From NCBI RefSeq assembly GCF_037975245.1, contig NC_092582.1:23150577-23214576 (forward strand): a DNA stretch of 64,000 nucleotides, written 5' to 3'. The position numbers and the translations under genes are program-made. Shown piece by piece: positions 5,844 to 31,593 of the stretch. This DNA is from Apostichopus japonicus (Eukaryota > Echinodermata > Holothuroidea > Aspidochirotida > Stichopodidae). The notes under the pieces are model-generated. The model made no database searches. It saw only the letters and a list, made by a program, of their open reading frames with translations, and was not told where the DNA came from. Each line of letters opens with the position of its first letter. Within the stretch, counting starts at the first letter, position 1.

Positions 5844-5878
5844 TCACTCCTTTCTGGTCACTTTGACTTCACTGTCAT
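5844..5878 (-). CDS. Gene B last coding exon
   Basis: Acceptor TTTTCAG precedes the exon, which reads in phase 1 as DDSEVKVTRKE then TGA. The gene A counterpart reads DASEVKVTKKE, with only conservative changes, which supports purifying selection on the tail. Confidence 0.7.
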
Positions 5879-8527
5879 CTGAAAAGAAAGAAAATTTACA
5901 ATTACCAGGTTTAATACTGAATTCATGACTTCCATTGCTTGCTGTTGATTGTCAATGCAGATGTGAAACACTGCAGATATCACCTGTAAGGTTCAAGTTC
6001 TGTAACCTCCCCTCCACTGTCTCCAAAAAATATAATCAATATAGATGGTTTCATGGCAAACATTCTTGAAAATTATTATGTTGTATTAAATTACTATCCA
6101 TTATTTATTTGTTGCTTTTAGCCAGTAACTAGATGCATACAAAACATAGTAATACTCAGCAATTAATGTACCAATAATGCTAATAGGTCCATCTATGCTT
6201 TACACATGAAGGTGACTGGAAGTCCCTATATCCCCAATAGTCCCTGGATTTCATGTGTCCTGGGATTTTATGTACAGCCCGCAAGGGGGGACTTCAAATT
6301 TAAAAAAAAAGCCCTGAATAATTTCAATTTTATCTCTTTTAACAGCCTCATGTTCGTAGAGAAAGCTTAGACCTAATTATGGGTCATTGTTTACAACCAC
6401 AAATGTAAAGCTCATTCATGGCTCCCAGAAAGAGGCAACCCAGACCAATGAATAGTTTCATAACCTGAAATTTCATGTGAAGCATAATCTTCCACTAAAT
6501 GCTGTATATTGACGCTCCCAGTTATTTCACGATTTTCCACTTCTGGTATTGTATTTTTATCTTGAAGAAATACTTGTTTCTGGATGAAGTATTTAAACCA
6601 GCAAGCACAGGATTTTCAAAGTGGGGGGGATGGGGGATGGGGGAGGGCCAAATTCCAAATCTAGGTAGGGCCAGAAGGGAATGAAGGATTTTATAGATGA
6701 CGGGGACTGGTCATTGAAACCTAAAAAGATTGGGGGAGTCTGAGGGTTCCTTGTCCAGATAAAAAACAAAACACATTTAGCTATTAAATATCAAATCAGG
6801 CATTGTGAGGTATACTTAGATCATAATTTAGGTCTTTATAATGAGTTGAAATAAAACAGTAACCCAAAAATTCCCCCAGGCTCATTAAGGCAGGCAACTA
6901 AATCTTTATTTAATAATGGAGGGGTTGCTGCTGCCCTGGGAGGCAATAAGGTTATATCCTATATAGGGGTCCTCCCACAGAAAACAAATTAACACTGCAC
7001 ATGCTAAATGATACCTTTTGGACTTGCATTGTGGACTATATAAATCAGGTTGACATAATAGCTACAAATGCAAAGTTTTGCCAAGAAGTATTTTGTGTGA
7101 GGTTTAACAAAAAGTATCGGAGGTGGGGGGGGGGGGGGTGGTGGATAGGGAGGGAAGGATACACCCAAAGATATGGTTCCCCTTTAATATGATTTCAATA
7201 CCCCATTAATAATTAATTACCCAGCAAATATTTTTGACAGGAATTTAACTGAGGATGGGGGCGGGGGGGGGGGGGGGTGCAGGTGGGCTAGGGTGACACA
7301 TCTTGTATGGGTCCTAAAAGTTCTTATAGGGCATCAACTTTTTAATTGTTCATCAACTTAACCAATTAAAGAAGATGAGATAACTCTATAAGCTAGAACT
7401 GCAAAGCAAAATGTTTCTTACCCCCATCTTGGCTAGATTTACGCTTCTGACTTCCAGATGTAGATGGACTCCCTGGAGCCACAAGTGTTTCGCCTAAGAA
7501 AGTAAGAGAGAAATAAAGAAAGTATCTGTACAACTGACAGAAAATTGTGGAAAGCCGTTATTTTATTTCAGTATATCTTGAAACAATTCCCGGAATCTAC
7601 AATTTTGTGACTAAATGTTTAAACAGGTTTCTACAAGCCCGAAGCTACTGGACAGTTCACTAGTGAGAGGCAAGGTGAAGCTAGCTGGAACATGTGAAGG
7701 TATGTGAAGGTTTGTGAAGGTATTTGAGGTTAAGTAAGTATCTATGACATGGTGCAAAATTTAGACTGGCGATATTCCTCAGCTATTCAGACCACCTTCT
7801 GTTTTGTGTATTAATGGATAATGTTGACTTCATTCCACAACACATTCAAGTTGCTATATACGTTAAACATTGCAAGGCAGATATACTGTAACTTAGCAGG
7901 GGATATTGTAAGTGGCACTTACCAGAATCATTTGCATCCCTTCCAAAGAGACACTCTTTGATCTTGTCAATAACATTTTGGAATTCTGGTTCGGGGTTAT
8001 CGATATACATCCGTGCATACACCAATTTAGTAGCCTCTAGTTGTATGCCTGGGTCGCCACCGTTCCTCGTCTGGTATGGCACCTTGACCTTCTCCAAGTG
8101 CAAGGGAATAATGAGTTTCTTGTGTGCTTTAGCAAGATTAAACTGAAACAAATAGAAAGCATATTGTTATGAAAAGTGATATCAATTCCAGGATTAATGA
8201 AACATCCAATTCTCCAGTGTCTGACTTTGGAGACGAACATTTGGCTTAGCCACCTCCCAACACTCTTAAAGGCTGACTACGCACCAGCATTGAGAAACAC
8301 ATAATTAGTAATAGATTAACTGGAAAAGTGCCATATCAAGGAACCTGTCTGCACCTCCAAGATAAGCAATAGATATGCGCAATCACTAGCTTCAATCACT
8401 AATAAGACAAGTGCTTTTTTTTTGTGTGCTTAATAACTAGTATAAATGCTTTTTTTATGCATTAGACTTGCTTTCATATAAACACATTATGAGCCAAATA
8501 ATTATCATAACAAGTATATATAAATAT

Positions 8528-8573
<46 letters not shown>

Positions 8574-11500
8574 ATACATATATATATATATGTATATATA
8601 TATATGGATAAGAATTATTATTATAAATATATATATATTTATATATATGCCAGGTTTCAAAACTTTGAATGTTTGTGCTCTTCATTAATCCAAGACAAAT
8701 TCAAATACTGAACTTATAAACTACTAGATACACTACAATCAAGTTAAAAGGTTTTTGAATACTTTGATCAACTGCCACATTGTCATCCCTTGATAATGTT
8801 TCTGTGTTCTCTGTGAGTCATGGAATAAATATGATATTGTGACAAACCTCATCCCTACATATTTCGGAGTCTATGTAATCCTTGGTGATCATGCAAAGCA
8901 TTATATCAGCTTTCTTGATGGCAGCAGTAATACTATCGAGAGTATAATCTCCTGGCAAGTTTCTTCTTGTATACATCCAGCAACTATCAACTCCAAAAAC
9001 TGACTCAATCTTTGATACCAACTTTGTTACCTCTTCTCTATTTTTTGAACTAAAACTGACGAAAAGAAAATCTGGAGAGAGAAAGTTAAGGTAAATAGGT
9101 ATTAAAGTGATGTCCAACCAATATTGTACAAGCCTAAATATAAAATGGAGGAATTCTTTAAAACTGAAGACTGTGATACTCAGTAGGGGTCAATAAGGAA
9201 GGGTTGCAAACACTACTTTAACATTAACAAAAGCTATCGATATTAACCTTCTAAGTAGAAAAGCACAATGTGTCAAAGAATTGCTAAACATGTCTTAAAA
9301 ACTCTTAAAGGATAATTTTTAAGCACAAATTTAATCTTGATATGTTCTCGAACATTACAAAGCACATGCTGCTATTTAGTCAAGCTTGTATTTTCTAAAT
9401 GAACACTTAATTTTTATGGTGCGTTTCCTTTTTGCCTTTTATTTGGACTACAAACCAAATAAGACTAAAATTCTGCCGCAAGTCAACATTTAATTGTTTG
9501 GTTACAAGTATCTGTGGTCACTCCAGAAGGCCCTTCTCAAAACAAAATCAATCAAAGCTTACCAGTATGATCACCTTTTTGTGATGGGGGAGACTTTACA
9601 GGTGAAGAGGAGGCAGAGCTTGCTACTAACTGTTTCTCTGTTAGGATGAAATGAAAAGGAAGAAAATAAAAAAGGTAAATTGGATCCAGAGTTTGTACAA
9701 TTAACAACTTGGAAGCCAGGGTAACTTTATTGTTCAAGACGATATGAGACATGACAAACATGGAGAACTATGAATAGATAATCACAATGTGTCAAAGAAT
9801 TGCTAAACATGTCTTAAAAACTCTTAAAGGATAATTTTTAGGCACAAAATTAATTTTGATATGTTCTTGAACATTACAAAGCACTGCTGCTTTTAATTCA
9901 AGCTTGGAATTGCTAAATGAACACTTAATTTTTAAGGAAGGGGCCCTTTGTACTTTTTACTTGGACTACAAACCTATCAAGACTAAAATTCTGCCGCAAG
10001 TCAACAAATTACAAGTATATGTGGTCACTCCAGAAGGCCCTTTTCAAAACAAAATCATTCAAAGCTTACCAGTATCATCACCTTTTTGTGATGGGGGAGA
10101 CTTTGCAGTTGAAGAGGAGGCAGAGCTTGCAACTGTCTGTCCCTCTGTTAGGATGAAATGAAAAGGAAGAAGAAGGGAAAAAGAGAAGGGTAAATTGGAT
10201 CCAGAATTTGTACAATTAACAATTTGGAAGCCTGGGTAACTTTATTGTTCAAGACGATCTTAGACATGACAAACATGGAGAACTATGAATAGATAATCAC
10301 AATGTGTCAAAGAATTGCTAAACATGTCTTAAAAACTCTTAAAGGATAATTTTAAGCACAAAATTAATTTTGATATGTTCTCGAACATTACAATGCACTG
10401 CTGTTATTTTGTTATTTTTGTCTAGCTCGTATTTTCTAAATGAACACTTAATTTTTAAGGAAGGGGCCCTTATGACCTTTCCTTGGACTACAAACATATT
10501 AAGACTAAAATTCTGCTGCAAGTCAATATTTAATTGTTTGGTTACAAAAATCTGTGGTCACTCCAGAAGGGGCCCTTTCAAAATGAAATCAAGCAAAGCT
10601 TACCAGTACGATCACCTTTTTGTGATGGGGGAGACTTTGCAGTTGAAGAGGAGGCAGAGCTTGCAACTGTCTGTTCCTCTGTTAGGATGAAATGAAAAGA
10701 GAGAAGAAAAAATAGGGTCAATTGGATCCAGAATTTATTTGTACAATTAACAACTTGTACTGTAAGCTAGGGTAACTTTATTGTTCAAGACGATATGAGA
10801 CATGACAAACATGGAGAACTATGAATAGATAATCACAATGTGTCAAAGAATTGCTAAACATGTCTTAAAAACTCTTAAAGGATAATTTTTAGGCACAAAA
10901 TTAATTTTGATATGTTCTTGAACATTACAAAGCACTGCTGCTTTTAATTCAAGCTTGGAATTGCTAAATGAACACTTAATTTTTAAGGAAGGGGCCCTTT
11001 GTACTTTTTACTTGGACTACAAACCTATCAAGACTAAAATTCTGCCGCAAGTCAACAAATTACAAGTATATGTGGTCACTCCAGAAGGCCCTTTTCAAAA
11101 CAAAATCATTCAAAGCTTACCAGTATCATCACCTTTTTGTGATGGGGGAGACTTTGCAGTTGAAGAGGAGGCAGAGCTTGCAACTGTCTGTCCCTCTGTT
11201 AGGATGAAATGAAAAGGAAGAAGAAGGGAAAAAGAGAAGGGTAAATTGGATCCAGAATTTGTACAATTAACAACTTGGAAGCCTGGGTAACTTTATTGTT
11301 CAAGACGATCTTAGACATTACAAACATGGAGAACTATGAATAGATAATCACAATGTGTCAAAGAATTGCTAAACATGTCTTAAAAACTCTTAAAGGATAA
11401 TTTTAAGCACAAAATTAATTTTGATATGTTCTCGAACATTACAATGCACTGCTGTTATTTTGTTATTTTTGTCTAGCTCGTATTTTCTAAATGAACACTT

Positions 11501-14500
11501 AATTTTTAAGGAAGGGGCCCTTTGTACTTTTTACTTGGACTACAAACATATTAAGACTAAAATTCTGCTGCAAGTCAATATTTAATTGTTTGGTTACAAA
11601 TATCTGTGGTCACTCCAGAAGGGGCCCTTTCAAAATGAAATCAATCAAAGCTTACCAGTATGATCACCTTTTTGTGATGGGGGAGACTTTGCAGTTGAAG
11701 AGGAGGCAGAGCTTGCAACTGTCTGTTCCTCTGTTAGGATGAAATGAAAAGAGAGAAGAAAAAATAGGGTCAATTGGATCCAGAATTTATTTGTACAATT
11801 AACAACTTGTACTGTAAGCCAGGGTAACTTTATTGTTCAAGACGATATGAGACATGACAAACATGGAGAACTATGAATAGATAATCACAATGTGTCAAAG
11901 AATTGCTAAACATGTCTTAAAAACTCTTAAAGGATAATTTTTTAGGCACAAAATTAATTTTGATATGTTCTTGAACATTACAAAGCACTGCTGCTTTTAA
12001 TTCAAGCTTGGAATTGCTAAATGAACACTTAATTTTTAAGGAAGGGGCCCTTTGCACTTTTTACTTGGACTACAAACCTATCAAGACTAAAATTCTGCCG
12101 CAAGTCAACAAATTACAAGTATATGTGGTCACTCCAGAAGGCCCTTTTCAAAACAAAATCATTCAAAGCTTACCAGTATCATCACCTTTTTGTGATGGGG
12201 GAGACTTTGCAGTTGAAGAGGAGGCAGAGCTTGCAACTGTCTGTCCCTCTGTTAGGATGAAATGAAAAGGAAGAAGAAGGGAAAAAGAGAAGGGTAAATT
12301 GGATCCAGAATTTGTACAATTAACAACTTGGAAGCCTGGGTAACTTTATTGTTCAAGACGATCTTAGACATGACAAACATGGAGAACTATGAATAGATAA
12401 TCACAATGTGTCAAAGAATTGCTAAACATGTCTTAAAAACTCTTAAAGGATAATTTTAAGCACAAAATTAATTTTGATATGTTCTCGAACATTACAATGC
12501 ACTGCTGTTATTTTGTTATTTTTGTCTAGCTCGTATTTTCTAAATGAACACTTAATTTTTAAGGAAGGGGCCCTTTGTACTTTTTACTTGGACTACAAAC
12601 ATATTAAGACTAAAATTCTGCTGCAAGTCAATATTTAATTGTTTGGTTACAAATATCTGTGGTCACTCCAGAAGGGGCCCTTTCAAAATGAAATCAATCA
12701 AAGCTTACCAGTACGATCACCTTTTTGTGATGGGGGAGACTTTGCAGTTGAAGAGGAGGCAGAGCTTGCAACTGTCTGTTCCTCTGTTAGGATGAAATGA
12801 AAAGAGAGAAGAAAAAATAGGGTCAATTGGATCCAGAATTTATTTGTACAATTAACAACTTGTACTGTAAGCCAGGGTAACTTTATTGTTCAAGACGATA
12901 TGAGACATGACAAACATGGAGAACTATGAATAGATAATCACAATGTGTCAAAGAATTGCTAAACATGTCTTAAAAACTCTTAAAGGATAATTTTTAGGCA
13001 CAAAATTAATTTTGATATGTTCTTGAGCATTACAAAGCACTGCTGCTTTTAATTCAAGCTTGGAATTTCTCAATGAACCCTTAATTTTTAAGGAAGGGGC
13101 CCTTTGCACTTTATACTTGGACTACAAACCTATCAAGACTAAAATTCTGCTGCAAGTCAACATTTAGTTGTTTGGTTACAAGTATATGTGGTCACTCCAT
13201 GAAAATCATGGAGAACCATAAAGGTGGTTATGTACATGGCCATGGGCGGTGTTCATGGGGGGGGGACATGTCCCCCCAATATTTTAGGTTGGGGGATATA
13301 GTATATAATATCCCCCCCCCAATATTTGGTGGCATAGTTTTTTGTGTGGCGATAAATAGAAATAATGTGTGAGATTATTTATCCAAATCCTATTTGGCGG
13401 TGGCTGAAACTTCATCCAACACGTGCTGCATGAGGTAGATGACACTTCGTGGTCGTTTCTGTAACCTGTGACCGTATAGCATGTTGTCACTCAAGATTAT
13501 TATCATGTCTGTACATCTCTTGTGTATGAGCGTAAGTACGTACAATCAAATGATCCAGAACGATATGGGTTCACTGGAGGGGGGGGGGGGGAAGACTGGC
13601 CAACCCCCTCGAGCATAAATTTTTTTTTTTTTATTATATCGAAGTTTTATAGTAGCCGTTATGAGAGGTTTGATATTTGTACACCAATAAATTAACTGTG
13701 TCTGAATTTTCAAAAATTCCATGACCAATATTCTTTATCATACTTCCCTCTACTGGTGCAATTTTAATTAACTGGTCTGTTAGGGGTTGAAGGGGGTTTT
13801 CTATATTAGTTGTCCATTGATGAAATTTTGTGCAACATTATGGGTATGTTTTGAAGTGAATTTATTCAATATCTGAACAAATAATGGGCTTAAAACCTTG
13901 AAAAGTGGGGCTGACGGGTATTGTGGGGCGTTACGTAGAATTACCTACAAAAGCAATGATCCACAGGAGATGTGATGAGGTCGCACATGATGTGTGACTG
14001 GTGACAATCTTGAAAATGGTTATGAATGAAAAAAAATATTGGGAAAAACTTGGTTCTCAGGCAAAAGTGTATATCTGGTTGGTCATTTTCAAGCCCGAGA
14101 AGTGCCATTTCCGGTGATCTGGGGGGCTATCAAAACCAGAAATTTTCTTGTACGCTGCGCGCCAACCAATGGTGGCGCTCCCCTTTGATAGTAATTCGCC
14201 TGCAACCAAGCAAATGTCCCCCCCCCCAATATTTGAAACAAATCGCCCCTCCTGTACATGGCATAGCCTAGATATCAGTCTGTCTCGAGTGTTTATGATG
14301 GAGAACAGACAGAATCAGGAGAACATCTTTTGTGATAAGTTATGAAACAAAATCTGGTTTTCCTAGCTGTGGCTGGCATGTTAAAATCCACAAATGGAAG
14401 CAACATGGTGCAAAAATTGGTTCATTTGATGCCATTTTTTGACCATTTAAAGGCATTGAAGACTCCCCCAAAACCGCGTGTGGCCATCTGAAAAAGTTAA

Positions 14501-16180
14501 CTTTCTGTTGCTTGCAAGTGACGTTATGTTCGTGTCGCTACAAAATGCAGACAGTAATGAAACGTAATACCTTAAATTGTTATCTTTAGCTGGACCTGAC
14601 ATGTCCATGGCTGTATCATCTATACACTGTGCTGTGGGTATTGACCCCAGCTGTACGTACTGACTGTACACTAGTATCTAATTACTGACGGTAGCAAGCT
14701 GTGTGTGTATTTTCTGGGATCGATGATGGTGTTTAACACTTCTGTTACACCTCATTCAAAACTAGGTCAAATTACCGGCATCAGACGTTTCTTTTTGCGC
14801 GAGTCTTCACACCCTTTAAAGTAAGGTGGCCATATTTTCGTGACTGAAATCGGGGACATTTATTGCATGACTGATATGGGGGAGGGGTTTAAGGGAAGGG
14901 GCTGTCCCCCTCCCCCCTTTGGAAATTTTTAAGTGCCTAAGGTGCTTAGATGTAAAATGGTGATACTTTGAAGCACTTTTAAATCAATTCTATTTTCAAA
15001 TATGTAGCTTTTTCTTAAATGAAATCTACTTACTTTACGTGGATCTTTGAGAGCTTATGATTTTCTCATGCTCACACTATGTGTCGTTGTGTCGCCGTAG
15101 TTGCCATTTATACGGTCGAAAGAGTGCTAGGCTAGATCGATCTAGCATATTTTTAACAGTGTTTACACTGGCCCACTGAAATACTGGTTATAAGTTCCGT
15201 TCTGCGACTGCACACATGACTAAATTTTGTTTTTACAGTTATTTTACTAATAATGTGGGATATTTTCTAAATTCCTGAACATTTTGACGAATCGGGGACA
15301 TTTTCGGGGACACTTGTTCATCAGGGACAGCACACTGTAATCGGGGACTGTCCCAGAAAATCGGGGACGTCTGGTCACCTAACTTTAAAGACCACGTTGC
15401 TTGTGTGATTTAGTGTGTAAGTCAATGGGGCAATTATATGGAGCATGCTTTATGACACATGGCTCATTGCCACAGTATGTGACACTGCATGGTAGTAAAT
15501 ATCTTCAGATTGAAACACAACGTACTGTACAATTTCATCTAATGACATAATCATCATAAATGGAAAGGTAAATCAATCCCCGTCATTTTTAACATTTATT
15601 TAGCGAAAAACAGTTCAGAAACTTCGAGAATTTTACACTCGAACTCTGCTCTCTGTGTACAGCATTCGCGGGTTGGATTTGAAAATCGTGACGTCACAAT
15701 TCTTTGAACATAATGAGGGTCGCGAGGTCAGCTTTCCCGTTTGATGTGAATAGGCCTAGCCTAGGCCTTTATAGAATTTGGGTAACTGGCTGTACTGTAC
15801 ACCAAAATTCGGCTAGCCTAACTGCATGTGGCTCATTATTATACTACATTACCTTGCTCCTGTCTTTCGATTTCCTTGTTGATAAGGTTCGCATTCCGAC
15901 TTTTATAAAGTTTCAGAATGCCCGCAGCTTTCTTTAATTTTATTTCTTCAAGTTTTCTGATAAGGCCATCCACATTCGTTGAATGAAGTTCTTCCGGGTC
16001 CTCTAGTAGCTTGCGTAAAAAGCATTGTGCGGGATCGTCATCTTTTTTGATTTTGTCAGTTTCATTATTATTAATTTTTGGGTAAAGGAAGGTAAGACTC
16101 ATGATTTTACTTGAAGTCAGTTCCCCGGACAACTTTGTGAGTGCGCTGGCAAAGTTATTTGCTAAGTCGTGTTCCGCCAT
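5844..16180 (-). CDS. DED-linker-TIR gene B (seven linker exons)
   Basis: Proposed exons on the minus strand: 16180-15853, seven 75-nt linker exons (12783-12709, 12248-12174, 11730-11656, 11195-11121, 10678-10604, 10144-10070, 9637-9563), 9071-8848, 8142-7923, 7493-7422 and 5878-5844. Each internal exon has AG/GT borders. Phases chain 1-1-...-1-0-1-1 and give 1,404 nt, 467 aa plus TGA. Residues 1-109 form a death-effector-like helical domain, 110-284 a Ser/Pro/Lys-rich repetitive linker, about 285-425 a TIR domain, and the rest a basic Ser-rich tail. TIR family members act as signalling adaptors or NAD-cleaving enzymes. The candidate catalytic Glu is kept (E359, in SEICRDE). The model is inferred from splice signals and comparison with gene A. 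No transcript was available, and use of all seven linker exons is not proven. Confidence 0.75.
7422..7493 (-). CDS. Gene B Ser-rich tail exon
   Basis: 72 nt, phase 1-1, acceptor TTAG, donor GTAAGA. Encodes a Ser/Pro/Gly-rich basic segment (LVAPGSPSTSGS core) ending SSQDGG. Matches the gene A exon at 23286-23357. Confidence 0.7.
7923..8142 (-). CDS. Gene B TIR exon 2 (C-terminal half)
   Basis: 220 nt, phase 0-1, acceptor TTTCAG, donor GTAAGT. Encodes the C-terminal half of the TIR fold: a strand of 'KKLIIPLHLE' type (beta-D position), a loop, then a long helix 'NVIDKIKECL'. Aligned over its full length with the gene A exon at 23815-24034. Confidence 0.8.
8515..8650. repeat. (TA)n-rich microsatellite in gene B intron
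   Basis: Interrupted TA/TATACA repeats within the intron separating the two TIR exons. Confidence 0.9.
8848..9071 (-). CDS. Gene B TIR exon 1 (N-terminal half)
   Basis: 224 nt, phase 1-0, acceptor CTCCAG, donor GTTTGT. Encodes DFLFVSFSSKN (box 1-like strand), a helix, 'WMYTRRNLPGD' (BB-loop region), a helix, then 'ADIMLCMITKDYIDSE' and CRDE. The order of strands and the terminal C-x-x-E motif are those of TIR domains. The Glu is the last codon before the intron. Confidence 0.85.
9563..9637 (-). CDS. Gene B linker exon copy 1 (most 3')
   Basis: 75 nt, phase 1-1, acceptor CTAACAG, donor GTAAGC. Reads EKQLVASSASSSPVKSPPSQ then KGDHTG. Of all copies it is most like the single linker exon of gene A (EKQLVAS start), so it probably represents the ancestral exon. 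Confidence 0.75.
10070..10144 (-). CDS. Gene B linker exon copy 2
   Basis: 75 nt, phase 1-1, acceptor CTAACAG, donor GTAAGC. Type-1 monomer exon, reading EGQTVASS...KGDDTG. Confidence 0.7.
10604..10678 (-). CDS. Gene B linker exon copy 3
   Basis: 75 nt, phase 1-1. Type-2 monomer exon, reading EEQTVASS...KGDRTG. Splice signals intact. Confidence 0.7.
11121..11195 (-). CDS. Gene B linker exon copy 4
   Basis: 75 nt, phase 1-1. Type-1 exon, the same peptide as copies 2 and 6 (EGQTV...GDDTG). Confidence 0.7.
11656..11730 (-). CDS. Gene B linker exon copy 5
   Basis: 75 nt, phase 1-1. Type-2 exon, differing from copies 3 and 7 at one residue (GDHTG in place of GDRTG). Confidence 0.7.
12174..12248 (-). 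CDS. Gene B linker exon copy 6
   Basis: 75 nt, phase 1-1. Type-1 exon (EGQTV...GDDTG). Intact acceptor and donor. Confidence 0.7.
12709..12783 (-). CDS. Gene B linker exon copy 7 (most 5')
   Basis: 75 nt, phase 1-1. Type-2 exon (EEQTV...GDRTG). First exon joined after the DED-like exon in the full model. Intact acceptor and donor. Confidence 0.7.
13241..14252. mobile_element. 1.0-kb insertion with 10-bp target duplication
   Basis: Flanked by direct TGTACATGGC (13231-13240 and 14253-14262). The matching site in unit A (about 28047) is uninterrupted, giving an empty-site control. The element has C/G-rich 'TGTCCCCCC' stretches near both ends and carries the dispersed core (GCGCCAACCAATGGTGGCGC, about 14158-14177, in inverse orientation). 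No transposase frame was seen; non-autonomous. Confidence 0.75.
14447..14819 (+). mobile_element. TTAA-type MITE, copy 1
   Basis: Element of about 370 bp bounded by TTAA, with left end AGGCATTGAAGACTC and right end GAGTCTTCACACCCT (imperfect terminal inverted repeats of about 20 bp). TTAA target sites are the rule of the piggyBac superfamily, so a non-autonomous piggyBac-like element is the best guess. It occupies the same place in gene B intron 1 as the copy at 28245 in gene A, so it predates the duplication. Confidence 0.8.
14814..15390. mobile_element. MITE with AGGTG(G/A)CCA ends, gene B only
   Basis: Ends read TAAGGTGGCCA and, in inverse, TTAGGTGACCA, both flanked by CTTTAAAG, a palindrome that may be an 8-bp target duplication. 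It abuts the right end of MITE copy 1. The interior has repeated 'ATCGGGGACA' motifs near both ends. Absent from unit A, so inserted after duplication. Confidence 0.65.
15853..16180 (-). CDS. Gene B first exon: death-effector-like domain
   Basis: 328 nt from ATG, ending in phase 1 at donor GTAATG. Encodes an all-helical domain with 'LSGELTSSKIMSLTFLYPKI', 'DDPAQCFLRKL' and 'VDGLIRKLEEIKLKKAAGIL', which match the helix order and spacing of DED-family death folds. The ATG is preceded by in-frame stops and aligns with the gene A start. DED identification rests on pattern only; another death-fold class (CARD or PYD) is possible. Confidence 0.7.
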
Positions 16181-17554: not shown

Positions 17555-17941
17555 AAGTGGCGGAGCTAGGGGTATTGGTCAGGAGGAGCGAGAATGGTCT
17601 GTAGGGGCGCTCTCAACACTATCTAAGCGGAGCGCCACCACTGGTTGGCGCGTAGCGTACAGAAAATTTTTGAGTAAATATACTCCCTAGATCGCCGGAA
17701 ATGACCTTTTCCGGGCCTGGCTAATTTGCAGATAAACGAAGAATAAATAGGTGTCATCTCCAAATTACACCAACAAAATGTGACAAATGTCAATAAGTAG
17801 ATGAGAGCGCAATAAAAAAGTCAATAATCTAGAATAAGTAAAAAGTGGTAAAGAGCTGAAAAACGCGCCAGCAGTCCATTTGAGTCCGTCAGGGGGGGGG
17901 GGGGCATGCGCCCCCCTGACCGTATGGACGCTCCGCCACTG
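17555..17941. mobile_element. hAT-like MITE with perfect 8-bp target duplication
   Basis: Ends AAGTGGCGGAGC and GCTCCGCCACTG, flanked by identical CGCGGCGG (17547-17554 and 17942-17949). An 8-bp target duplication with CAGTGG-type ends is the hallmark of hAT elements. Closely related to 27253-27597. Confidence 0.8.
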
Positions 17942-18849: not shown

Positions 18850-19020
18850 CACTGTTCCTCTTTCTCTTCCCGGTGTCTTCGCGTTTTTCTTTTACTCCAT
18901 CTTTTTCTCCTTTTTCTCTCTTTCTTCTTTTTCTTTTCTCTTCCTTCCTCTCCTCCTCTTCTTTTTTCCCCTCTTTTTTCCTTTTTTCTTCTTTTTTTTT
19001 TCTCTCCTCTTTTTCTTACT
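18850..19020. repeat. Polypyrimidine (CT-rich) tract
   Basis: About 170 bp almost purely C and T on the plus strand. The open frames on both strands here are low-complexity artefacts. Confidence 0.9.
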
Positions 19021-20453: not shown

Positions 20454-20462
20454 GGGTGCGGG

Positions 20463-22203
20463 GGTATGCAAGAGGAGACCTACCAAGCCAAATTTGGTTG
20501 ATTTTGTATGGAATGACCTTTATCATAATATCATAAAAGATGACAAACATTATTCTTGAGGAACAATATTTCAGATAAACACATTTGCATATTTAAAAGA
20601 GAAAACTATAAATTCAAATATGTTTTGGCACATTTCACACAAAAGCGTAGTACTAGCTAGATAGCGAGAAGACAACAGACTGTATGTGTCCTTCAAGATT
20701 GGATTCACTGTGTATAATAAAACTTGTCTGCCAAAGCTCTTCAATGGTGGTAAAATCAAAGAAACTTTTTGGTCTCGATCATAAAAGGAATCTTTGGAAG
20801 TTTGACGAGTTTGACCAAATGTCAGTGTCTGAAATTTGTTTGATACCTGAGAAACCTTGCAAAAAATAGTATGATGTCAACTTGGCAACTCAGGAATTAA
20901 TTTAAAACTGTATAGTTGTATAAGTTCGTAATGCTCTTCTTAAATATCCAACACAATTCAGCCGTATTAGCTTTAGCTATATTATTACATACAATGTGAA
21001 TATTGAGAATGTACAAGTATTGATGATAGGCACACAGCCCCCCACCCTCTCCCAATTCATGATAAAAAACAAGGCATTTAAAGGAGAAATCATTAAACTA
21101 AACAATAAAAAGCAATGGTTTCATACCATGATAAAGGTGAGAAATATCACTCTTCTAAACAACCCTTGAAAGGTGACAAAACACACCCTTCATTGATATA
21201 CATGATTGAGGTAGTTATGACGATGGATGTTTTCCTCAAACAACACTTAAAGTGGACACAAATCACAAACTATCATTGAATATCTCTATAAAGGTGCTAC
21301 CAATTGGACTTCTCCCCTCAACAAAATTGCTGTTTAAGGCATTGAAGATACGCCCCAAACCGCCATCTGAAAATGTTAACTTTACGTTGCTTGTAAGTGA
21401 AGTTTTTTTCTTGTTGCTACAAAATGCAGACAGTAATGAAACTTGATACCTTGTTATCTTTTATCTGGACCTGAGATGTCCATCACTCCTATGTACACTG
21501 TGTTGTGGGTATTGACCATAGCTGTATGTATTGACTGTACATTAGTGTCTAATTACCGACGGTAGCAAGCTGTGTGTGTATTTTTTAGGATCAATGGTGG
21601 TGTCCAACACTTCTGTTACACCTCATTCGAAACTAGGTCAGATTACCGGCATGAGACGTTTCTTTGTTTGCGAATCTTCGGTGCCTTAAAGTGTCATAGC
21701 AGACATGCCATGGACAGACAGTGTACTCCAGTGACCTCTTCCTTCAATCTTACCAGTCTTACTTTGACCAAGGAAAGAGATGAGTTTTGTCCGAGAAAAT
21801 ATCAAGTAAAACTTAAATATGTCCAGACTTTAGTGGCTCTGTGTTATCTTTTACTTGATCTTGTTAAGTTATTCATCTTCCTCAGTGAAACACATTTTTT
21901 TTTCACAACAAACTGTTCATCATTCCCATTCAATAAATGCCTTTCATACATAGCTAATGACAACCGATAGTTTGAGCTGATCCATATGACATGTCTGGTC
22001 AGTTCTAAGATTTGTTTCCCAACTTCGTGTCTCACTGTTAATTGGTAAATTAATTGGTGTAAAAAGGTGTAACCTGCATGATGATAACCCCCCCCCCAAA
22101 AAAAAAAAAAAATCGAAAATGCCAGTGATATGAGCATTGTTAATGGATCGTGTATGACACAATTAATCAAATACAATTTTACTTGTGTTAAACATGTATG
22201 GGA
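20463..22203. other. Intergenic 3' flank of gene A
   Basis: Duplicated non-coding sequence matching 4420-5637. Apart from MITE copy 2 nothing is recognised. Confidence 0.5.
21334..21689 (+). mobile_element. TTAA-type MITE, copy 2
   Basis: Same family as copy 1, bounded by TTAA. The matching site in unit B (about 5190-5215) lacks it, so it arrived after the duplication or was lost from unit B. Confidence 0.75.
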
Positions 22204-22209
22204 TTTATT
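22204..22209 (-). promoter_or_regulatory. Candidate poly(A) signal of DED-TIR gene A
   Basis: AATAAA on the minus strand about 200 nt after the stop codon at 22409-22411, in the same place as in gene B. Confidence 0.5.
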
Positions 22210-22408
22210 TCATGCAGTAAGTACTGTAAGTGTCTTTGATCACACTGATTTTAACTTTCATATGAAAGGAACTTTTAAAAAGAGAAAATGAGAAGTTAAT
22301 TGCTTTTTTAAGGTGTGCTCTTTATACACCAGTATATAAAAATGTGACTAGTTTGTACCAGTGGTTGCCCATGGTCTAGGTAAGAAATATAAAGAAATAT
22401 GACAAGAA

Positions 22409-22443
22409 TCACTCCTTTTTGGTCACTTTGACTTCACTGGCAT
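22409..22443 (-). CDS. Gene A last coding exon
   Basis: 35 nt after acceptor TTTTCAG. Reads DASEVKVTKKE and TGA. Confidence 0.7.
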
Positions 22444-25400
22444 CTGAAAAGAAAGAAAATTTACAATTCCTAGTTAACTGAATTCATGGAAATGGGCTTC
22501 CATTTAACTTGCTGTTGATTGTCAATGCAGATGTGAAACACTGCATATATCACCTGTAAGGTTTAGGTCATTGACACCTAAAAATATAGGGGGAGTCTGG
22601 GGGTTCCTTGTCGATATAAAAAACAGAAAAAAACATTTAGCTCTTAAATATCAAATGAAGCATGGTGAGGTATACTTAGGTTATAATTAAGGTCTTTATA
22701 ATTTAGCTGAAATAAAACAGTAACCCCAAAATTTCCCTAGGCTCATAAGGTAGGGGCCTAAATCTTTATTTAATAATGGGGGGGTTGCTGCTGCCCTGGG
22801 AGGCAATAAGGTTATCTCCTATATTGGGGTCCTCCCAAAGAAAACAAATTAACACTGCACATGCCAAATGATACCTTTTGGACTTGCATTGTGGACTATA
22901 TATAAAATCAGGTTGAAATATTAGCTATAAATGCAAGGTTTTGCTAAGAAGTATTTTGTGTGAGGTTGAACAAAAGTAAGGGAGGTGGGGGGGGGATGGG
23001 GGATAGGGCGGGAAGGATACTCCCAAAGATATGGTCAAATTCTTCCCCTTTAATATGATTTCAATACCCCATTAATAATTAATTACCCAGCAAATGTTTT
23101 TGACAGGAATTTAACTGGAGGATGGGGGCAGGGGGGGGGGCTGCAGGTGGGCTAGGGTGACATATCTTGTATGGGTCCCCAAAGTTCTTATAGGGCATCA
23201 ACTTAATTGCTCATGAACTTAACCTATCAAAGAAGATCAGATAACTCTATAAGCTATGTAGAACTGCAAGCAAACCGTTTCTTACCCCCATCTTGGCTAC
23301 ATTTATGCTTCCGACTTCCAGATGTAGATGGACTCCCTGGAGCTACAAGTGTTTTGCCTAAGAAAGAAAGAAAGTAAGAAAGAAAGAAAGTATCTGTACA
23401 ACTGACAGAAAATTGTGAAAAGCCGTTATTTTATTTCAGTATATCTTGAAACAATTCCTGGAATCTATAATTTTGTGACTAAATGTTTAAACAGGTTTCT
23501 ACAAGCCGGAAGCTACTGGAGGGTTCACTGTGAGAGGCAAGGTGAACCTAGCTGGAACATGTGAAGGTATGTGAAGGTTTGTGAAGGTATGTGAGGGAAT
23601 GTGAAGGTATGTGAGGTTAGGTCAGTATCTATGACATGGTACAAAATTTAGGCTGGTGATATTCCTCAGCTATCAAGACCACCTTTTGAGACACAATGTT
23701 TTGTGTATTAATGGATGATGTTGACTTCATTGCACAACACATACAAGTTGCTATATATGTTAAATATTGCATGGCAGATATAACTTAGCAGGGGAGAGTG
23801 TAAGAGGCACTTACCAGAAGCATTTGCGTCCTTTCCAGGGAGACACTCCTTGATCTTGGCGATAACTTTTTTGAATTCCTCTTCGTGTTTCTCGATATAC
23901 ATCCTTGCATACAACTGGTCAGTAGCTGCTAGTTGCATGGAAGAGTTGCGCCCATCCTTCTTCTTGTATGGCTGCGGGACCTCCTCCAAGTGCAAGAGAA
24001 TAATTTGTTTCTTCAATTTTTTGGCAAGAAGAAACTGAAACAAATAGAAAGAATATTGTGATTAAAAGTTATATCAATTCCATGATGAATGAAACCATTA
24101 TTTCTCCAGTGCCGGTACTTTGGGGACGAACATTTGGCTTAGCCACCTCACAACACTAAGGCTGACTACCCACCAGCATTGAGAAATAAATTAGTAAGAT
24201 TAACTGTAAAAGTGCCATATCATGGAACCTGTCTGCACCTCCAAGATAAGCAATATATATAAGCAACCACTAGTCTCTACTCTAAAATAATAAGACAAGG
24301 ACGTTACACTACATACAGTCAGTATATACAGCACAGCATACAAACAAAACAGCGATGGACATCACATGTCCAGCTTAAAGAGGTTATGAAATGAAATATT
24401 TTCATGTCTTGGAATGGTTTATCTACATTACTACAACACCATCCATGCACTATTTTCCATAAATACGGCTTCAAACGCCAGAAATTCGCTGTCAAAGTAT
24501 TCCCTAGAGACCTCTCGAGCTGCCACTCGTAAAAAAAAGCAAAGCTGCCACCGCAGTTCATCTGACGTCATCAAAGGAACCATTTCAGCTAAAGCCGACT
24601 CCCCGCTGTTTACCGATACGGCGTTATACAGTTTACAACATGTAACCAAAACATTCTTCTCATCAATTGTCTTCTCCCGAATCTTCCGATTCCGAGGAAA
24701 TAGGACTTCACCTCTCAGGACATTCGTAAGCTTTGACAAAAATTATTTTCTTGAGGAAGAGGAGGAGTAAATAGTTTTGAGGGTGATGAAGATAATATCG
24801 GTGTTTTTCCCTATCAATTGAGCCCCTTGCAGAAGAATTGTAAAACGGCGATCCCGATGGCCAAGACGCGTCGCTGCCGTGCGAAGTCCCCGAGCAGAAG
24901 GGTTGGACGACCCTGAATCGAAACTGGTCGGTTGAGCATAAACAAAACCACCGTTATTAAGACCTTCATATGATTTAAATTATCTTGAATGTCGATGATC
25001 CTGCTACATAACTTCGTAGCGTAGCTTCTAGAATTTTGTGTCTTACAGTGCAAGGAAAATGTGACATTCTGTTACAGTGCAACCCTATAGTAGTACTGGT
25101 AACATGGCCCTAGATCTAACTAATAGACGTTGTATAACAGGCTAGCCCGTGTAATTGTATCATCCAACTGTTACGTAAAATCACAACACAGAGCCAGTTT
25201 TACCACAAAAGAAAACTTGCAGATCTAGAATTGATTGTTCTAAACCAACTGGCTTTAAATTTTGTGTAAAATATTAGGTAACCAACAAAAAATCGTCAAT
25301 TGCTGTATCAAGGAGGCCTAGGCTATGGTCATAACAAGTAATTTGGCAACAGTATAGGCTTACAGGCACTCATAACGTTGTGTATGTGTAGTGTTTTGAG

Positions 25401-28400
25401 CGAGTCTTGTTCAAATTCTTCGATTTCTGTCATCTTTTGGAAAAGCTTGCAGTAGAAATCCGTCTCTACTTGTGGTGGAGCAACCTGATACCACATATCG
25501 GCTCAGCATATTTAACAGTAACGAGATAAATTTACGTAAAAACAAAACTCCAAATCTCAATTACTACGGAGCGCTGCAACAGTGTAATGTTGTGTGTTCT
25601 CAGACGTTTAAGAATGTAAACATAGCTTGGAAGTGAGCTGAGTTCCTCGACTGACGTCACGCCGCATTTACCGTAAATACAAAAATTTTTCGAAAGTTTT
25701 TATTACCCTCGAATTTTTGATCGTTTATTCCTCGATGATGCAAGCTTCGATTGACACAAATTGGGTATCATTGGAAAGTTACGAGTATACAGAATACGAT
25801 GAGAAAGAATTTTTTTTCCATTTCATAACCTCTTTAAGATAACTATTAAGGTATCACGTTTCATTACTGTCTGCATTTTGTAGCAACACGAACAAAACGT
25901 CACTTGCAAGCAACAGAAAGTTAACTTTTTCAGATGGCCTCACACGGTTTGGGGTGAGTCTTCAATGCCTTTAATGTGCATTAAAGAGTGAATTTCTAAA
26001 GGCTTCAAACAATTATTATAACAAGAAACAATTGTTAATAAATAATTCTCATTAATATGTACATGATATTTGTGTTATGTTTTATGTTATGGTGTCCTAA
26101 ATGATCAGCCTCATTAACTTACAATGGAATGTGATAAGTACTTCAAATTTTTTTTTTGTGTCATAAGATATCATTTGACATTGCTCATATATTCCCCTTC
26201 ACTTTAATGGAGAAGGGGCTATGTTTATAGACAACTGTAGGACACCGAGTAACATACATTAACATCATCACTTGTCTTTTTTATTTGCCTCAAATCCACC
26301 TTTCTTGATAATGTATTATCTTTTAACATTACTAATTGTGTTCCACATTCACCGGAGAACCAGAATCAGCACTCAAATAGATACCTTTGTGTAATTCATT
26401 TTTGAACATGCATGTCACATTTTAGTAACCCAGTATCATATTATGACATATAAATATATATATATATATACACATAGATAGATATATATACAGTATAAGC
26501 ATTACTAATAAATACATAAATGATACAACCATTTGTTTTGTTAACATCAGCTGACATCACAATGCCATGAAAAATTCTCATCCAGGTTTCAAAACTTTTA
26601 ATAACAAAGCTCTTCATTAATCCAAGACAAATTCAAATACTGAACTTACAAACTACTAGTTACACTCGAGTCCAAAAGTGTTTGAATACTTTGATCAACT
26701 GCCACTTTGTCAACCCTTGATTACGTTTCTGTGTTCTCTGTGAGTCATGCAAATATGATATTGTGACAAACCTCTTCTTCACATGGTTCTGAGTCAATGT
26801 AATCCTGGTTGATCATGCAAAGCATTATATCAGCTTTGTTGATGGCATCAACAATCTCCTGGGGCAGACTTTCTCCGGGCTTGTTCCTAGTCGTATACAT
26901 CCAGCAACTCCCATCTCCAACAAGTGACTCAATCCTTTCTACCAGCTCTGTTACCCGTTCTTTAATCTTTGAACTGAAACTGATAAACAGTTTATCCTTT
27001 ACATCTGGAGAGCGAAAGTTAATGTAATTAGGTAAGTGATGTACGACCAATATTGTACAAGCCTGAATATAAAATGGAGGACTGTCTTACTGAGTTGGGG
27101 TCACTTCGAAAACATTGCAGACACTACGCAAAAGCTATCGATATTACCCTTTAAGTACATAATCACAATGTGTCAAAGAATTGCTAAACATGTCTTAAAA
27201 AGTCTTAAACGATTAATTTTAAGAACATAATTAATTTTGATATGTTCTCGAACAGTGGCGGAGCTAGGGGTATTGGTCAGGAGGGCGAGAATGGTCTGTA
27301 GGGGCGCTTTCGACACAATCTAAGCAGAGCGCCACCACAGGTTGGCGTGGAGCGTACAGACATTTTGAGTACAGATACTGTACTCCCTAGATCGCCGGAA
27401 ATGACCCTTTCCGGGCCTTGCTAATTTGCAGATAATGTGACAAATGTCAATAGGTAGATGAGAGCGCAATCAAAAAGTCAATAATCGCAAATAAGTAAAA
27501 AGCTGAAAAGGGTGCCAGCAGTCCATTTGAGTCCGTCACGGGGGGGGGGGGGGGGGAGACAATAGCCACCCCTGACTGTATGGACGCTCCACCACTGTTC
27601 TTGAACATTACAAAACACTGCTGCTATTAAGTCAAGCTTGTATTTGATATGAACACTTAATTTTTAAGGAACAACCCTTTTTGCCTTTTTTCTTGGACTA
27701 CAAACCTATCAAGATTAAAATTCTGCTGCAAGTCAACATTTAATTGTTTGGTTACAAGTATCTGTGGTCACTCCAGAAGGCCCCATTCAAAACAAAATCA
27801 ATCAAAGCTTACCAGTACGATCACCATTTTGTGATGTGGGAGACTTTGCAGGCACAGAGGAGGCAGTGCTTGCAACTAACTGTTTCTCTGTTAGGATGAA
27901 ATGAAAAGGAAGAAGAAGGGAAAAAGAGAAGGGTAAATTGGATCCAGAATTTGTACAATTAACAACTTGGAAGCCAGGGTAACTTTCATGGTCAAGATGA
28001 TCTGAGACATGATAAACATAATTCTCCATAATTAAAGGTGGTTTACAGTATGTACATTGCATAGCCTAGATATCAATCTGTTCGAGTGTTCTCCATCATA
28101 AAATTTGACAAACAGAATCAGGAGAACATCTTTTGTGATACGTTATGAAACAAAATCTGGTATTTCTGTGGCTGGCATGTCAAAGTCCACAAATGGAAGT
28201 AAACATGGTGCAAAATTGGGTCATTTGATGCAAATTTTGACCACTTAAAGGCATTGAAGACTCGCCCCAAACCGCTTGCCACCATCTGAAAAAGTTAACT
28301 TTCCGTTGCTTGCAAGTGAAGTTTCTTCTTGTCGCTACAAAATGCAGACAGTAATGAAACATGATACAGTACCTTGTTATCTTTGATCTAGACCTGAGAT

Positions 28401-31400
28401 GTCCATTGCTGCTATGTACACTGTGTTGTGGGTATTGACGGTAGCTGCATGTATTGACTGTACAGTACACTAGTGTCTAGTGTCACACACTAGCAAGCTG
28501 TGTGTGTATTTTCTAGGATCAATGGTGGTGTCCAACACTTCTGTGTACACCTCATTCGAAACTAGGTCAGATTACCAGCATGAGACGTTTCTTTTTGTGC
28601 GCGAATCTTCACACCCTTTAATTAGGCCTCCCAGGAGCAGCATCAAAAATTGTTTACTACTGAGTAGAGAGGTTTGTTTAGAAGTGACCAAAACTTCAGT
28701 CACTCGTAACAAAAATATCTGCACGGTCATGATACAGAAAACTGATGGTGCCATGAGCTATCCAGTAATGGGTAGCGTTTAGCTATTGAGAACTTCTATC
28801 TAGACTTAGAGACCCCGATACTTTTGTGATTATGGAGCATGCTATATGACACATGGCTCATATTGAGTTGTGACAGTATGTGACACTGCATGGTAGTAAA
28901 TATCTTCAGATTGAAACACAACCTACTGTAAGTACTGTACAGTTTCATCTAATGACATTTAAACATGATCATCATTATGTCTTGACAAACTTCATAACGC
29001 AACTGAATCAACATAGAATTCAACTTTCTGTGTATCTTTCGATGTCACCCAAGGCTACATATTGCTTTGCATTCATGATATATCTTTGGTTTGCTTTGGT
29101 ACTGAAGTTTACTAAATGATGACAATATAGAATTGATATACTGTATATTCAATGACCGACCACTTCAATATGTTTTGAATAAATAATTATTAATTGGGCT
29201 TGTTGAGACATACAGCATAGTCCACAGGCACTCAACATTTGCAATAACTTAACAGACCTGCCAACTTGTCTTTTACAAAAACCAAGGGAGAATTCCAATT
29301 TTCATCCCCAATATATTAGGGGGCAAGGGGACAAAAATACTTGTAGGACAAAATCCAAATAAACCACAATAGTGACATGAAAAGTACAGTACGTACTGTA
29401 TGTATCACCGGATAGTTAATATTGCAACAAATATTCAGTGTGTTTTGTTCTGTAATTACATTTGATTATCGGGCAGGATATCGTTTGATATGTTCATCAG
29501 CTTAATGTGCAATATTATTTACTTTAATCAAAAACTTAATTTGCTATCTCTTCCTATGTCAGTGCATGATTGTATGCAGAGTGTATAGGCCCGGTTACCA
29601 TATATGTTCACAATAAGTCATATGGAAATGTGGAGTTTTTTGCAATGAAAATATATTGTTCGGCCAGAAAACTAAATTGCATTGGTTTTCTAATGGGTTT
29701 CGTGAGGTTCACAAAATCTCTTTTTTTAGGACACGCAAACTAAAATCCATGTGTCACTTTATGCAACTGTTACAGAAGCTTCATGATATAGGTGTAATTG
29801 TTTTCAACACACGAACATGAATGGTGACTGCATAATGCATATAGTAACCCCACAAGCCTGGGTATGAAAAGCTGTAGCATAGTTGGAACAAGCACTAACA
29901 TTAAAGGCATTGAAGACTCGCCCCAAACCCCGTGCAGCCATCTGAAAAAGTTAACTTTCCGTTGCTTGCCAGTGACGTTTTGTTCGTGTCGCTACAAAAT
30001 GCAGACAGTACAGTAATGAAATGTGATACCTTGTTATCTTTAGCTGGACCTGAGATTTCCTTCGCTGCATTGTTTGTACACTGTGCTGTGGGTACTGGCT
30101 GCAGCTGTATGTACTGACTGTGCACTAGTGTCTAAATTAATTACCGATGGTAGCAAGCTGTGTGTGTATTTTCTGGGATCGATGGTGGTGTCTAACACTT
30201 TTGTTACACCTCATTCAAAACTAGGTCAGATTACCGGCATTAGACGTTTCTTTGTGCGCGAGTCTTCACACCCTTTAATTTATCTTGCTATTTCATGATA
30301 TGGGGAGTGGACACCACCCACCCCCTGCCCCTCTGCCTGGAAGGCAATGTCCCACTATTCACACAAAGAATTTGGTAACCCTACGGGGTGTAACTGTAAG
30401 TGTAACTGTGTTGTACCATTGTGCAGTGAGAAACATTGTTATGCTGAGTTTATGCCATCTCTCTACCAAAGTGGTCAATCTATTGCCACACACGCAGTTA
30501 TTGTTGGGTGTTACTAAAACGAATGACAATTGCATTTACACATAACGAATGACAATATGTTGTAGTGTTGTACACACTAAAAAAATGCGTTGACTAAAAC
30601 GAATGACAGCGTATGACAGCACAGACATTTGCTTCAACCGGATACCACAGTTCAGACTTCGTGGGTATATTAAAGCCACGCAAACCGAGTGGACGCGAAG
30701 TGCGTGGCTTACAGATCTAGTAAAGTACGGACAAGATACAAACGCACCTTATAGTAAGCGAAATTGTAAGTCAGATTTTAAAAGGTAAATTTAACGTCAT
30801 TTTTCCAATATTAATTGTTAGAAACTAACAATACTATAATCGTGAAACGGCTAAAAATTTCAGGAAGAGTTCTTATATTGGACATTTCTATGAAAAAAAA
30901 AATGATTAACTCCACTCCGTTAATAATTCTATCTCTTCTCACCACCGTCCTTCGTTGTCATTCGTTGTCATTTGCTGTCATTCGCGAATGATAATTAACC
31001 CTGTACAAAGTCAATTGTCATTCGCAGTCATTCGTTTTGGTTTGTCCTTTATTGTTTGTATCATGTAGAGATCTAATTTGTTAAGTGTGTGTTTTGTTGT
31101 TACTTCATCGTACTGCCCGTAGACCTACACGGTTTTTGTATCCCCGTTGGAAGTTGGATGTGAATAGGCCTAGGCCCTAGGCCTATATAGAATTTGGGTA
31201 ACCTGTACTGTACACCAAAATTCGGCTAGCCTAGCTTATCTGTGGCTGATTATTATAGACATTACCATGCTCCAGTCTTTCGATTTCCTTGTTGATCAGG
31301 TTCGTATTCCGACTTCTATAGCGTTTCAGAATGCCTGCAGCTTTTATTAAATGTATGTATTCTAGGGTTTTAATAAGGCCATCCACGTTCGTTTCACTTA

Positions 31401-31593
31401 GTTCCCAACCCTTTATTTTGCGGAGAAAGCAATCTGCGGGATCATCATCTTTTCGGATTTTGTCAGCCTCCTTATTACTAATTTTTGGGTAAAGGTTGGT
31501 AAGTTTCCTGATATCACTTGAAGTGAGTTCCTCGGACAAATCTTGGAGTGTTTTGGCAAAGTCCTCTTCTAATCTGGCTCTGTCGTCCTCCAT
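22409..31593 (-). CDS. DED-linker-TIR gene A (one linker exon)
   Basis: Proposed exons on the minus strand: 31593-31266, 27887-27813, 27004-26772, 24034-23815, 23357-23286 and 22443-22409. Every border has AG/GT. Lengths sum to 963 nt, 320 aa plus TGA, with phases 1-1-0-1-1. Residues 1-109 hold a death-effector-like domain, 110-134 a Ser/Pro/Lys linker, about 135-275 a TIR domain and 286-320 a basic Ser-rich tail. No signal peptide or membrane segment, so cytosolic. Candidate TIR catalytic Glu is E212 (SEPCEEE). The gene is the tandem partner of gene B and lies head-to-head with DARS2. Known for the families: DEDs assemble on like domains such as those of caspase-8-type proteins, and TIRs signal by self-association or NAD cleavage. 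Their joint role here is inference. No transcript evidence. Confidence 0.77.
23286..23357 (-). CDS. Gene A Ser-rich tail exon
   Basis: 72 nt, phase 1-1. Reads GKTLVAPGSPSTSGSRKHKC then SQDGG. Acceptor TTAG, donor GTAAGA. Confidence 0.7.
23565..23620. repeat. Short tandem repeat (GTATGTGAAG type)
   Basis: Ten-base units repeated about six times in the intron before the tail exon. Unit B has about four (7690-7735). Confidence 0.8.
23815..24034 (-). CDS. Gene A TIR exon 2 (C-terminal half)
   Basis: 220 nt, phase 0-1. Starts FLLAKKLKKQIILLHLEE and ends KIKECLPGKDANAS. Same length and phases as the gene B exon, with residue differences spread over the loop, consistent with an expressed diverging paralogue. 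Confidence 0.8.
24309..25974 (-). mobile_element. TTAA-type MITE, copy 3, split by a second transposon
   Basis: Inverse-orientation copy of the family. Its right end (GAGTCTTCAATGCCT then TTAA) is at 25971-25974; its far end is truncated near 24309. It is interrupted at an internal AGCTTAAG by the 1,455-bp element 24379-25833. Located in the intron between the two TIR exons of gene A, absent from gene B. Confidence 0.75.
24379..25833. mobile_element. 1.45-kb TTAA element nested in a MITE
   Basis: Perfect 15-bp inverted ends AGAGGTTATGAAATG and CATTTCATAACCTCT, flanked by TTAA at 24375-24378 and 25834-25837. The TTAA rule again points to a piggyBac-like or similar transposase. Not a recognisable transposase. 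On the minus strand it has open stretches of about 44 codons (25496-25364, followed by a GTAAGC donor), 79 codons (25053-24814) and 102 codons (24739-24431), which I could not join into one consistent reading frame, and two palindromic TGACGTCA sites (24563 and 25652). Function unknown. Confidence 0.8.
26454..26492. repeat. (TA)n-rich microsatellite
   Basis: Interrupted TA/TAGA repeats in a gene A intron. Confidence 0.85.
26772..27004 (-). CDS. Gene A TIR exon 1 (N-terminal half)
   Basis: 233 nt, phase 1-0, acceptor CTCCAG, donor GTTTGT. Encodes DVKDKLFISFSSKI (box 1-like), helix alpha-A, 'CWMYTTRNKPGES' (BB-loop region), 'AINKADIMLCMINQDYIDSE', then PCEEE at the exon end. Three codons longer than the gene B exon at its N-terminus. 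Confidence 0.87.
27253..27597. mobile_element. hAT-like MITE in gene A linker intron
   Basis: Ends CAGTGGCGGAGC and GCTCCACCACTG. Target duplication TTCTCGAA (27245-27252) versus TTCTTGAA (27598-27605), one mismatch, so it is somewhat older. It interrupts the single gene A copy of the monomer that is amplified in gene B. Contains the dispersed core at about 27320-27362. Confidence 0.82.
27813..27887 (-). CDS. Gene A linker exon
   Basis: 75 nt, phase 1-1, acceptor CTAACAG, donor GTAAGC. Reads EKQLVASTASSVPAKSPTSQ then NGDRTG. Single copy, against seven in gene B. Confidence 0.75.
28245..28621 (+). mobile_element. TTAA-type MITE, copy 4
   Basis: Same family, TTAA on both sides, at the position in gene A intron 1 that corresponds to copy 1 in gene B. 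Confidence 0.8.
29901..30278 (+). mobile_element. TTAA-type MITE, copy 5
   Basis: Full-length copy flanked by TTAA. Second copy within gene A intron 1, without a counterpart in gene B. Confidence 0.8.
30513..31040. mobile_element. Fold-back element rich in CGAATGACA repeats
   Basis: Left end CTAAAACGAATGACAATTG and right end with GCAGTCATTCGTTTTGG are inverted. Many further CGAATGACA or inverse TGTCATTCG units lie inside, mostly near the ends. Located in gene A intron 1 only. Confidence 0.65.
31266..31593 (-). CDS. Gene A first exon: death-effector-like domain
   Basis: 328 nt from ATG to donor GTAATG, phase 1 at the end. Reads MEDDRARLEEDFAKTLQDL and on through 'SEELTSSDIRKLTNLYPKI', 'DDDPADCFLRKI', 'NVDGLIKTLEYIHLIKAAGI'. 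The helix pattern and the 'ELTSSDIRKL' and 'DPADCFLRK' blocks resemble DED. Amphipathic and charged, no transmembrane segment. Confidence 0.72.

Follow-up and report, generated by a model that had tools for sequence, protein, structure and literature searches.

Tandem genes in Apostichopus japonicus with a predicted DED-type death fold, a TIR domain and, in one copy, an amplified linker exon

We analyzed a stretch of 64,000 nucleotides (nt) from Apostichopus japonicus (NC_092582.1, positions 23,150,577 to 23,214,576; hereafter the window), which carries two genes, A and B, each predicted to join an N-terminal death fold of the death effector domain (DED) type to a C-terminal TIR domain. The original prediction described them as a paralogous minus-strand pair with six exon types each, consistent phases and a conserved start and stop, and all of this was borne out. 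The exons were found at the predicted positions, their start phases are 0, 1, 1, 0, 1 and 1 in genes A and B alike, and both genes begin with ATG and end with TGA. Moreover, all internal boundaries of the predicted models show the splice borders AG and GT. The features of both genes are as follows, in coordinates of the window.

31266..31593, minus strand: gene B exon 1, ATG and putative death-fold (DED-like) domain, 328 nt
27813..27887, minus strand: gene B exon 2, the only copy of the Ser-rich linker in this gene, 75 nt
26772..27004, minus strand: gene B exon 3, first half of the TIR domain, ending at the conserved Glu of SxxCxxE
23815..24034, minus strand: gene B exon 4, second half of the TIR domain
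23286..23357, minus strand: gene B exon 5, tail of 72 nt, Ser-rich
22409..22443, minus strand: gene B exon 6, short tail with the stop codon TGA
22209-22204, read from the sequence: AATAAA about 200 nt downstream of the gene B stop
15853..16180, minus strand: gene A exon 1, ATG and putative death-fold (DED-like) domain, 328 nt
12709..12783, minus strand: first of the seven linker exons in gene A
12174..12248, minus strand: second of the seven linker exons in gene A
11656..11730, minus strand: third of the seven linker exons in gene A
11121..11195, minus strand: fourth of the seven linker exons in gene A
10604..10678, minus strand: fifth of the seven linker exons in gene A
10070..10144, minus strand: sixth of the seven linker exons in gene A
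9563..9637, minus strand: last of the seven linker exons in gene A, whose first residues are nearest to the gene B linker
9762..12917, minus strand: array of three units of 1,052 base pairs (bp) with two intact linker exons per unit, 98.9-99.6% identical
8848..9071, minus strand: gene A exon 3, first half of the TIR domain
7923..8142, minus strand: gene A exon 4, second half of the TIR domain
7422..7493, minus strand: gene A exon 5, tail of 72 nt, Ser-rich
5844..5878, minus strand: gene A exon 6, short tail with the stop codon TGA
5643-5638, read from the sequence: AATAAA about 200 nt downstream of the gene A stop

Gene B has the predicted length of 963 nt (320 residues). For gene A, the predicted 1,404 nt holds only if seven tandem linker exons are counted, whereas a model with one copy comprises 954 nt; the linker amplification behind the larger figure had not been mentioned. 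With one linker each, the proteins of genes A and B are 67% identical. All seven linker exons of gene A are 75 nt long, open in phase and flanked by CTAACAG and GTAAGC, so that each has its own acceptor and donor. The linker unit of 25 Ser-rich residues is present once in gene B and up to seven times in gene A. Since its units are nearly identical, the array is recent or has recently been homogenised, and an assembly artefact is possible. With a maximum period of 500, Tandem Repeats Finder could not pick up units of 1,052 bp and reported no tandem array between 9000 and 16000. We considered the linker amplification to be among the more interesting features of the pair. Genes A and B are tandem duplicates, and their predicted exons and phases, the TIR family and the linker amplification are read from the DNA itself.

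The first exon had been described as encoding a DED-like domain. The death fold is supported by a six-helix model and by matches in the PDB, while the DED type is favoured but not proven, with scores below the Pfam cut-off (35.9 bits for DED, PF01335). Nevertheless, DED was the top death-fold family of Pfam in both spliced proteins, with 20.7 bits for gene B and 13.5 bits for gene A; exon 1 alone reached 22.3 bits (expect value, E, 1.6e-4) and 15.6 bits (E 0.019), respectively. Pfam Death scored 13.9 bits in the gene B protein against a cut-off of 22.6 bits and was not listed for gene A, and CARD gave no match to exon 1 up to E 10 in HMMER, the filters of which drop most weak matches. In the AlphaFold2 model exon 1 forms six helices with a mean predicted local distance difference test score (pLDDT) of 78.3, the best of five models (41.8-78.3) built from a two-sequence alignment. 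Structure prediction had been proposed as a check for a death-fold match, and it returned matches which were all weak: Foldseek listed 152 PDB matches up to E 10, the best of which, at E 0.29, fell short of 0.001. Among the best 50 of these 152, 44 were death-fold entries, comprising the death domains of Fas and FADD, the PEA-15 DED, the CARDs of MAVS, ASC and Apaf-1, and pyrin domains. The other six were two designed proteins, three phycocyanins and one BIRC6. A PDB sequence search with the two-sequence profile of exon 1 found nothing up to E 10.

The type of the domain was also compared by hhalign within the genome. The exon 1 pair of the window gave 92.6% with nine Pfam-accepted DED exons (C16:10.2-10.9 Mb), a comparison that leans to the DED side because these DED loci were fetched by similarity to the window DED. 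Five death domains of the genome gave 1.2% and one CARD 0.2%. A death domain or a CARD instead of a DED is thus disfavoured by the Pfam scores and hhalign, although the fold alone does not exclude them, since the best Foldseek matches mix death domains, DEDs, CARDs and pyrin domains. We conclude that the modelled exon 1 domain is supported as a six-helix death fold, and that a DED is favoured for it over a death domain or CARD by sequence comparison.

The TIR domain predicted for both genes was confirmed by Pfam, as TIR_2 (PF13676, cut-off 28 bits) scored 47.7 bits in gene B and 55.0 bits in gene A. A profile built from five TIR domains of the family had 48 matches among PDB sequences up to E 1, the best being the CRISPR-associated TIR protein Cat1 (E 1.7e-6), followed by SpbK (1e-4), TLR2 (1.4e-4), TLR10 (2.8e-4), MyD88 (about 0.07-0.1) and TIR-STING (0.28). 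These matches bear on a possible effector role, in which the DED would assemble first, for example with DED-bearing sensors, and gather the TIR domains to cleave nicotinamide adenine dinucleotide (NAD+) like SARM1 and bacterial TIR effectors. In line with such a role, Cat1 and SpbK lead the list, the PADLOC models of ThsB match the window TIRs weakly (21.8 and 22.7 bits), and the Glu of SxxCxxE is retained in all six family TIRs, where it aligns with the Glu of TLR10 and Cat1. However, this residue is not diagnostic of an NADase, because TLR10, the TIR of which is a scaffold, has the same Glu. In addition, TLR2 and TLR10 follow closely behind, no SARM1 chain was among the 48 matches, and the family alignment shows RNxPG in the window TIRs at the position of the TLR BB loop. 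We regard the effector role as unlikely, while the sequence cannot decide between a scaffold and an NADase.

Relatives of the pair were found in the same genome. Four genes at C16:1.09-1.27 Mb have a TIR domain split at the same residue and phase as in genes A and B, with 35-48% identity to gene B in the first half and 30-36% in the second. Each of them has a same-strand upstream exon of about 80-90 residues that is DED-like, with an acceptor and a phase-1 donor seen in 4/4. The donor of the first TIR half was likewise seen in 4/4 and that of the second half in 3/4; in the remaining case the match fell on another copy in the vicinity. The one gene read exon by exon contains a linker as well as two tail exons that are repeated. 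A further upstream exon is expected in these genes, because in at least one of them the DED exon is without a start codon of its own. Genome scans listed at least 52 places for TIR_2, at least 84 for DED and at least 150 for Death. Comparing the TIR_2 and DED places by eye, we found a same-strand Pfam DED within 20 kb of TIR_2 for gene B only; the gene A DED is not among the at least 84 Pfam DED places listed. Four places with Death and TIR genes in a MyD88-like arrangement lie at C13:25.58-25.68 Mb.

The comparison of genes A and B indicates that the reading frame has been maintained. None of the three gaps in the aligned exons is out of frame, whereas 38/45 gaps in the aligned introns are, and in a neutral simulation with 10% change per lineage the gene B coding sequence stayed free of stop codons in 3.6% of 2,000 runs. 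A chance juxtaposition of the exons is rejected, as the exon gaps are in frame and the same plan recurs in the C16 genes. A related alternative holds that the exons are joined wrongly, with exon 1 in another transcript or some of the linker exons used, or that the genes are silent or decaying. The distances of 3.4 and 6.2 kb between exon 1 and the last linker exon would fit such a model, as would the ratio of nonsynonymous to synonymous divergence (dN/dS) of 0.87 overall. It is very improbable in our view, since every exon indel is in frame, genes A and B share their splice sites and phases, and in the four C16 genes a TIR split in the same way is preceded by a DED-like exon.

The exons have diverged more than the introns, with a Jukes-Cantor divergence of 0.240 for exons overall compared with 0.104 for aligned introns. 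Both dN (0.234) and dS (0.268) exceed the intron value, and dN/dS is 0.68-0.90 in the domain exons. We compared each exon with 150 flanking bases on each side by a Fisher test. The excess over the flanks was clear in the TIR exons 3 and 4 (p 8e-5 and 1.5e-5) and borderline in exon 1 (p 0.043), the 5' flank of which diverges equally with the exon; exons 2, 5 and 6 showed no excess. Classical positive selection is unsupported, with dN/dS under 1. The excess could stem either from gene conversion of the introns or from selection that favours divergence of the domains. The quick divergence of the TIR exons between the copies would also suit a dominant-negative role, in which a divergent DED and TIR cap or divert TIR and DED assemblies like a decoy and restrain death signalling. 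Low DED scores and the lack of an RxDL motif point in the same direction, but neither domain seems to be shortened or to lack part of its fold, and one of the two would be enough for a decoy. We consider this role quite improbable.

The best reading of the pair, to which we assign a probability of about one half, is that of a putative cytosolic adaptor linking TIR assembly to DED assembly. With an N-terminal DED-type death fold, a Ser-rich linker and a C-terminal TIR domain, the protein would enter assemblies of receptor or adaptor TIR domains through its TIR. The clustered DED would then seed DED assembly and draw in FADD-like adaptors and DED-caspases, so that TIR signalling could reach the caspase machinery within one protein, and the number of linker repeats may set the reach between the two assemblies. 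Signalling by cooperative, filament-like assembly is common to death-fold and TIR domains according to part of one report (PMC12133306). A broader version of the adaptor reading is doubtful, though worth stating: a family of six genes, two on C22 (the sequence holding the window) and four on C16, may join TIR sensing directly to DED and caspase assembly, tuned by the copy number of the linker exon. Gene A would recently have passed from one linker to up to seven and gained a longer tether, with its TIR exons outpacing the adjacent introns.

Besides the bias of the hhalign comparison, several observations weigh against an adaptor of this kind. The DED is sub-threshold in both proteins, and the RxDL charge motif, which is typical of many DEDs, was seen in neither exon 1 protein of genes A and B when read by eye. 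Among the C16 relatives, Pfam recognised a DED in only 1/4 first exons, and weakly (13.0 bits); hhalign of their first domain with the window DED gave 28.9%, which is weakly DED-like. The window DED is dissimilar to that of a neighbouring caspase (0.8% by hhalign). Moreover, protein-level purifying selection is weak, as indicated by the overall dN/dS.

Possible DED partners exist in the genome, as an apparent DED-caspase gene lies about 58 kb from the end of gene A on the same strand and a cluster of death-fold and caspase exons is found on C16. The joining of the caspase gene's exons is our own reading. These features and a CARD exon near the window are located as follows.

C22:23098535-23098170, minus strand: DED exon of the neighbouring caspase, 29.3 bits, under the cut-off
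C22:23091887-23091714 and 23089082-23088846, minus strand: caspase exons, 30.7 and 44.8 bits
C22:23149729-23149980, plus strand: top CARD match of the genome among 25 matches listed, 60 bits (58.8 in another scan)
C16:1.86-1.91 Mb: clustered matches to DED, Death and caspase exons, all on the same strand and some 0.6 Mb away from the four C16 TIR genes

The CARD exon has an open frame of 155 amino acids and ends 597 bases before the window, about 6.4 kb from the end of gene A; other parts of its gene were not found. The DED-caspase gene and the CARD exon hint at a death-fold neighbourhood around the pair, but such genes are numerous in this genome. Elsewhere in the window, exons of a class II aminoacyl-tRNA synthetase (tRNA-synt_2 31.9 bits, GAD 34.7 bits), presumably the mitochondrial aspartyl-tRNA synthetase, lie at 47964-52938 on the plus strand, opposite to gene B. 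Beside them, long open frames on both strands at 52988-54358 contain a short repeated unit and are minisatellite-like. Broken reverse transcriptase frames were found at 60924-62269 on the plus strand (RVT_1 50.3 bits at 61468-61761), and Rfam reported nothing at the gathering threshold in the window.

To our knowledge, a DED fused to a TIR domain is not a standard vertebrate architecture. Like MyD88, the predicted protein is small and cytosolic, with an N-terminal death fold, a linker and a C-terminal TIR domain. In contrast to MyD88, its death fold is of the DED type, it has a repeated Ser-rich linker and a tail, no Pfam Death above the cut-off is joined to TIR in genes A and B, and MyD88 TIR chains are weak matches. 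FADD and DED-caspases of the caspase-8 type share the N-terminal DED-type assembly domain. The partner of the DED is a death domain in FADD and a protease in caspase-8, whereas here it is a TIR domain, and no Death domain exceeds the cut-off. SARM1 and bacterial TIR effectors such as Cat1 and ThsB have a TIR_2-type domain and the Glu position in common with the pair; unlike in these proteins, the Pfam scan of the spliced proteins (E up to 1) found no ARM, SAM or CRISPR/Thoeris ligand-binding part.

Similar shuffling that joins TIR to other domains was described for hybrid genes of amphioxus, where 28 TIR combinations were reported, 20 of them amphioxus-specific; in contrast to our pair, the main-text passages name DED-NACHT, TIR-SAM and TIR-NACHT but no DED-TIR (PMC2575513). 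In bacterial bDLD3-TIR fusions a death-like domain is also fused to TIR, but according to the relevant part of the report it belongs to a separate death-like family (PMC8195603). Parts of five papers (PMC8195603, PMC11797021, PMC5094078, PMC6321704 and PMC4346834) name no DED-TIR protein. Searched by exact phrase, the DED-TIR pairing was not found in a literature set that covers few subscription papers and not, for instance, the immune gene surveys of sea urchin and amphioxus. The pair is a variant among known adaptors of death fold and TIR such as MyD88.

Vertebrate TIR receptors reach DED-caspases through the relays MyD88, TRIF, RIPK1 and FADD. If our reading is true, a DED-TIR protein would bypass these relays and offer a compact system for testing the coupling of two different assembly domains, and the linker array, with its seven copies, amounts to a natural experiment with the tether length of a signalosome. 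The pair adds to the evidence, as given in parts of two reports, that marine deuterostomes rebuild innate signalling via domain shuffling (PMC2575513, PMC8195603). In Apostichopus japonicus, the sensing of microbes would then be linked straight to the cell-death machinery.

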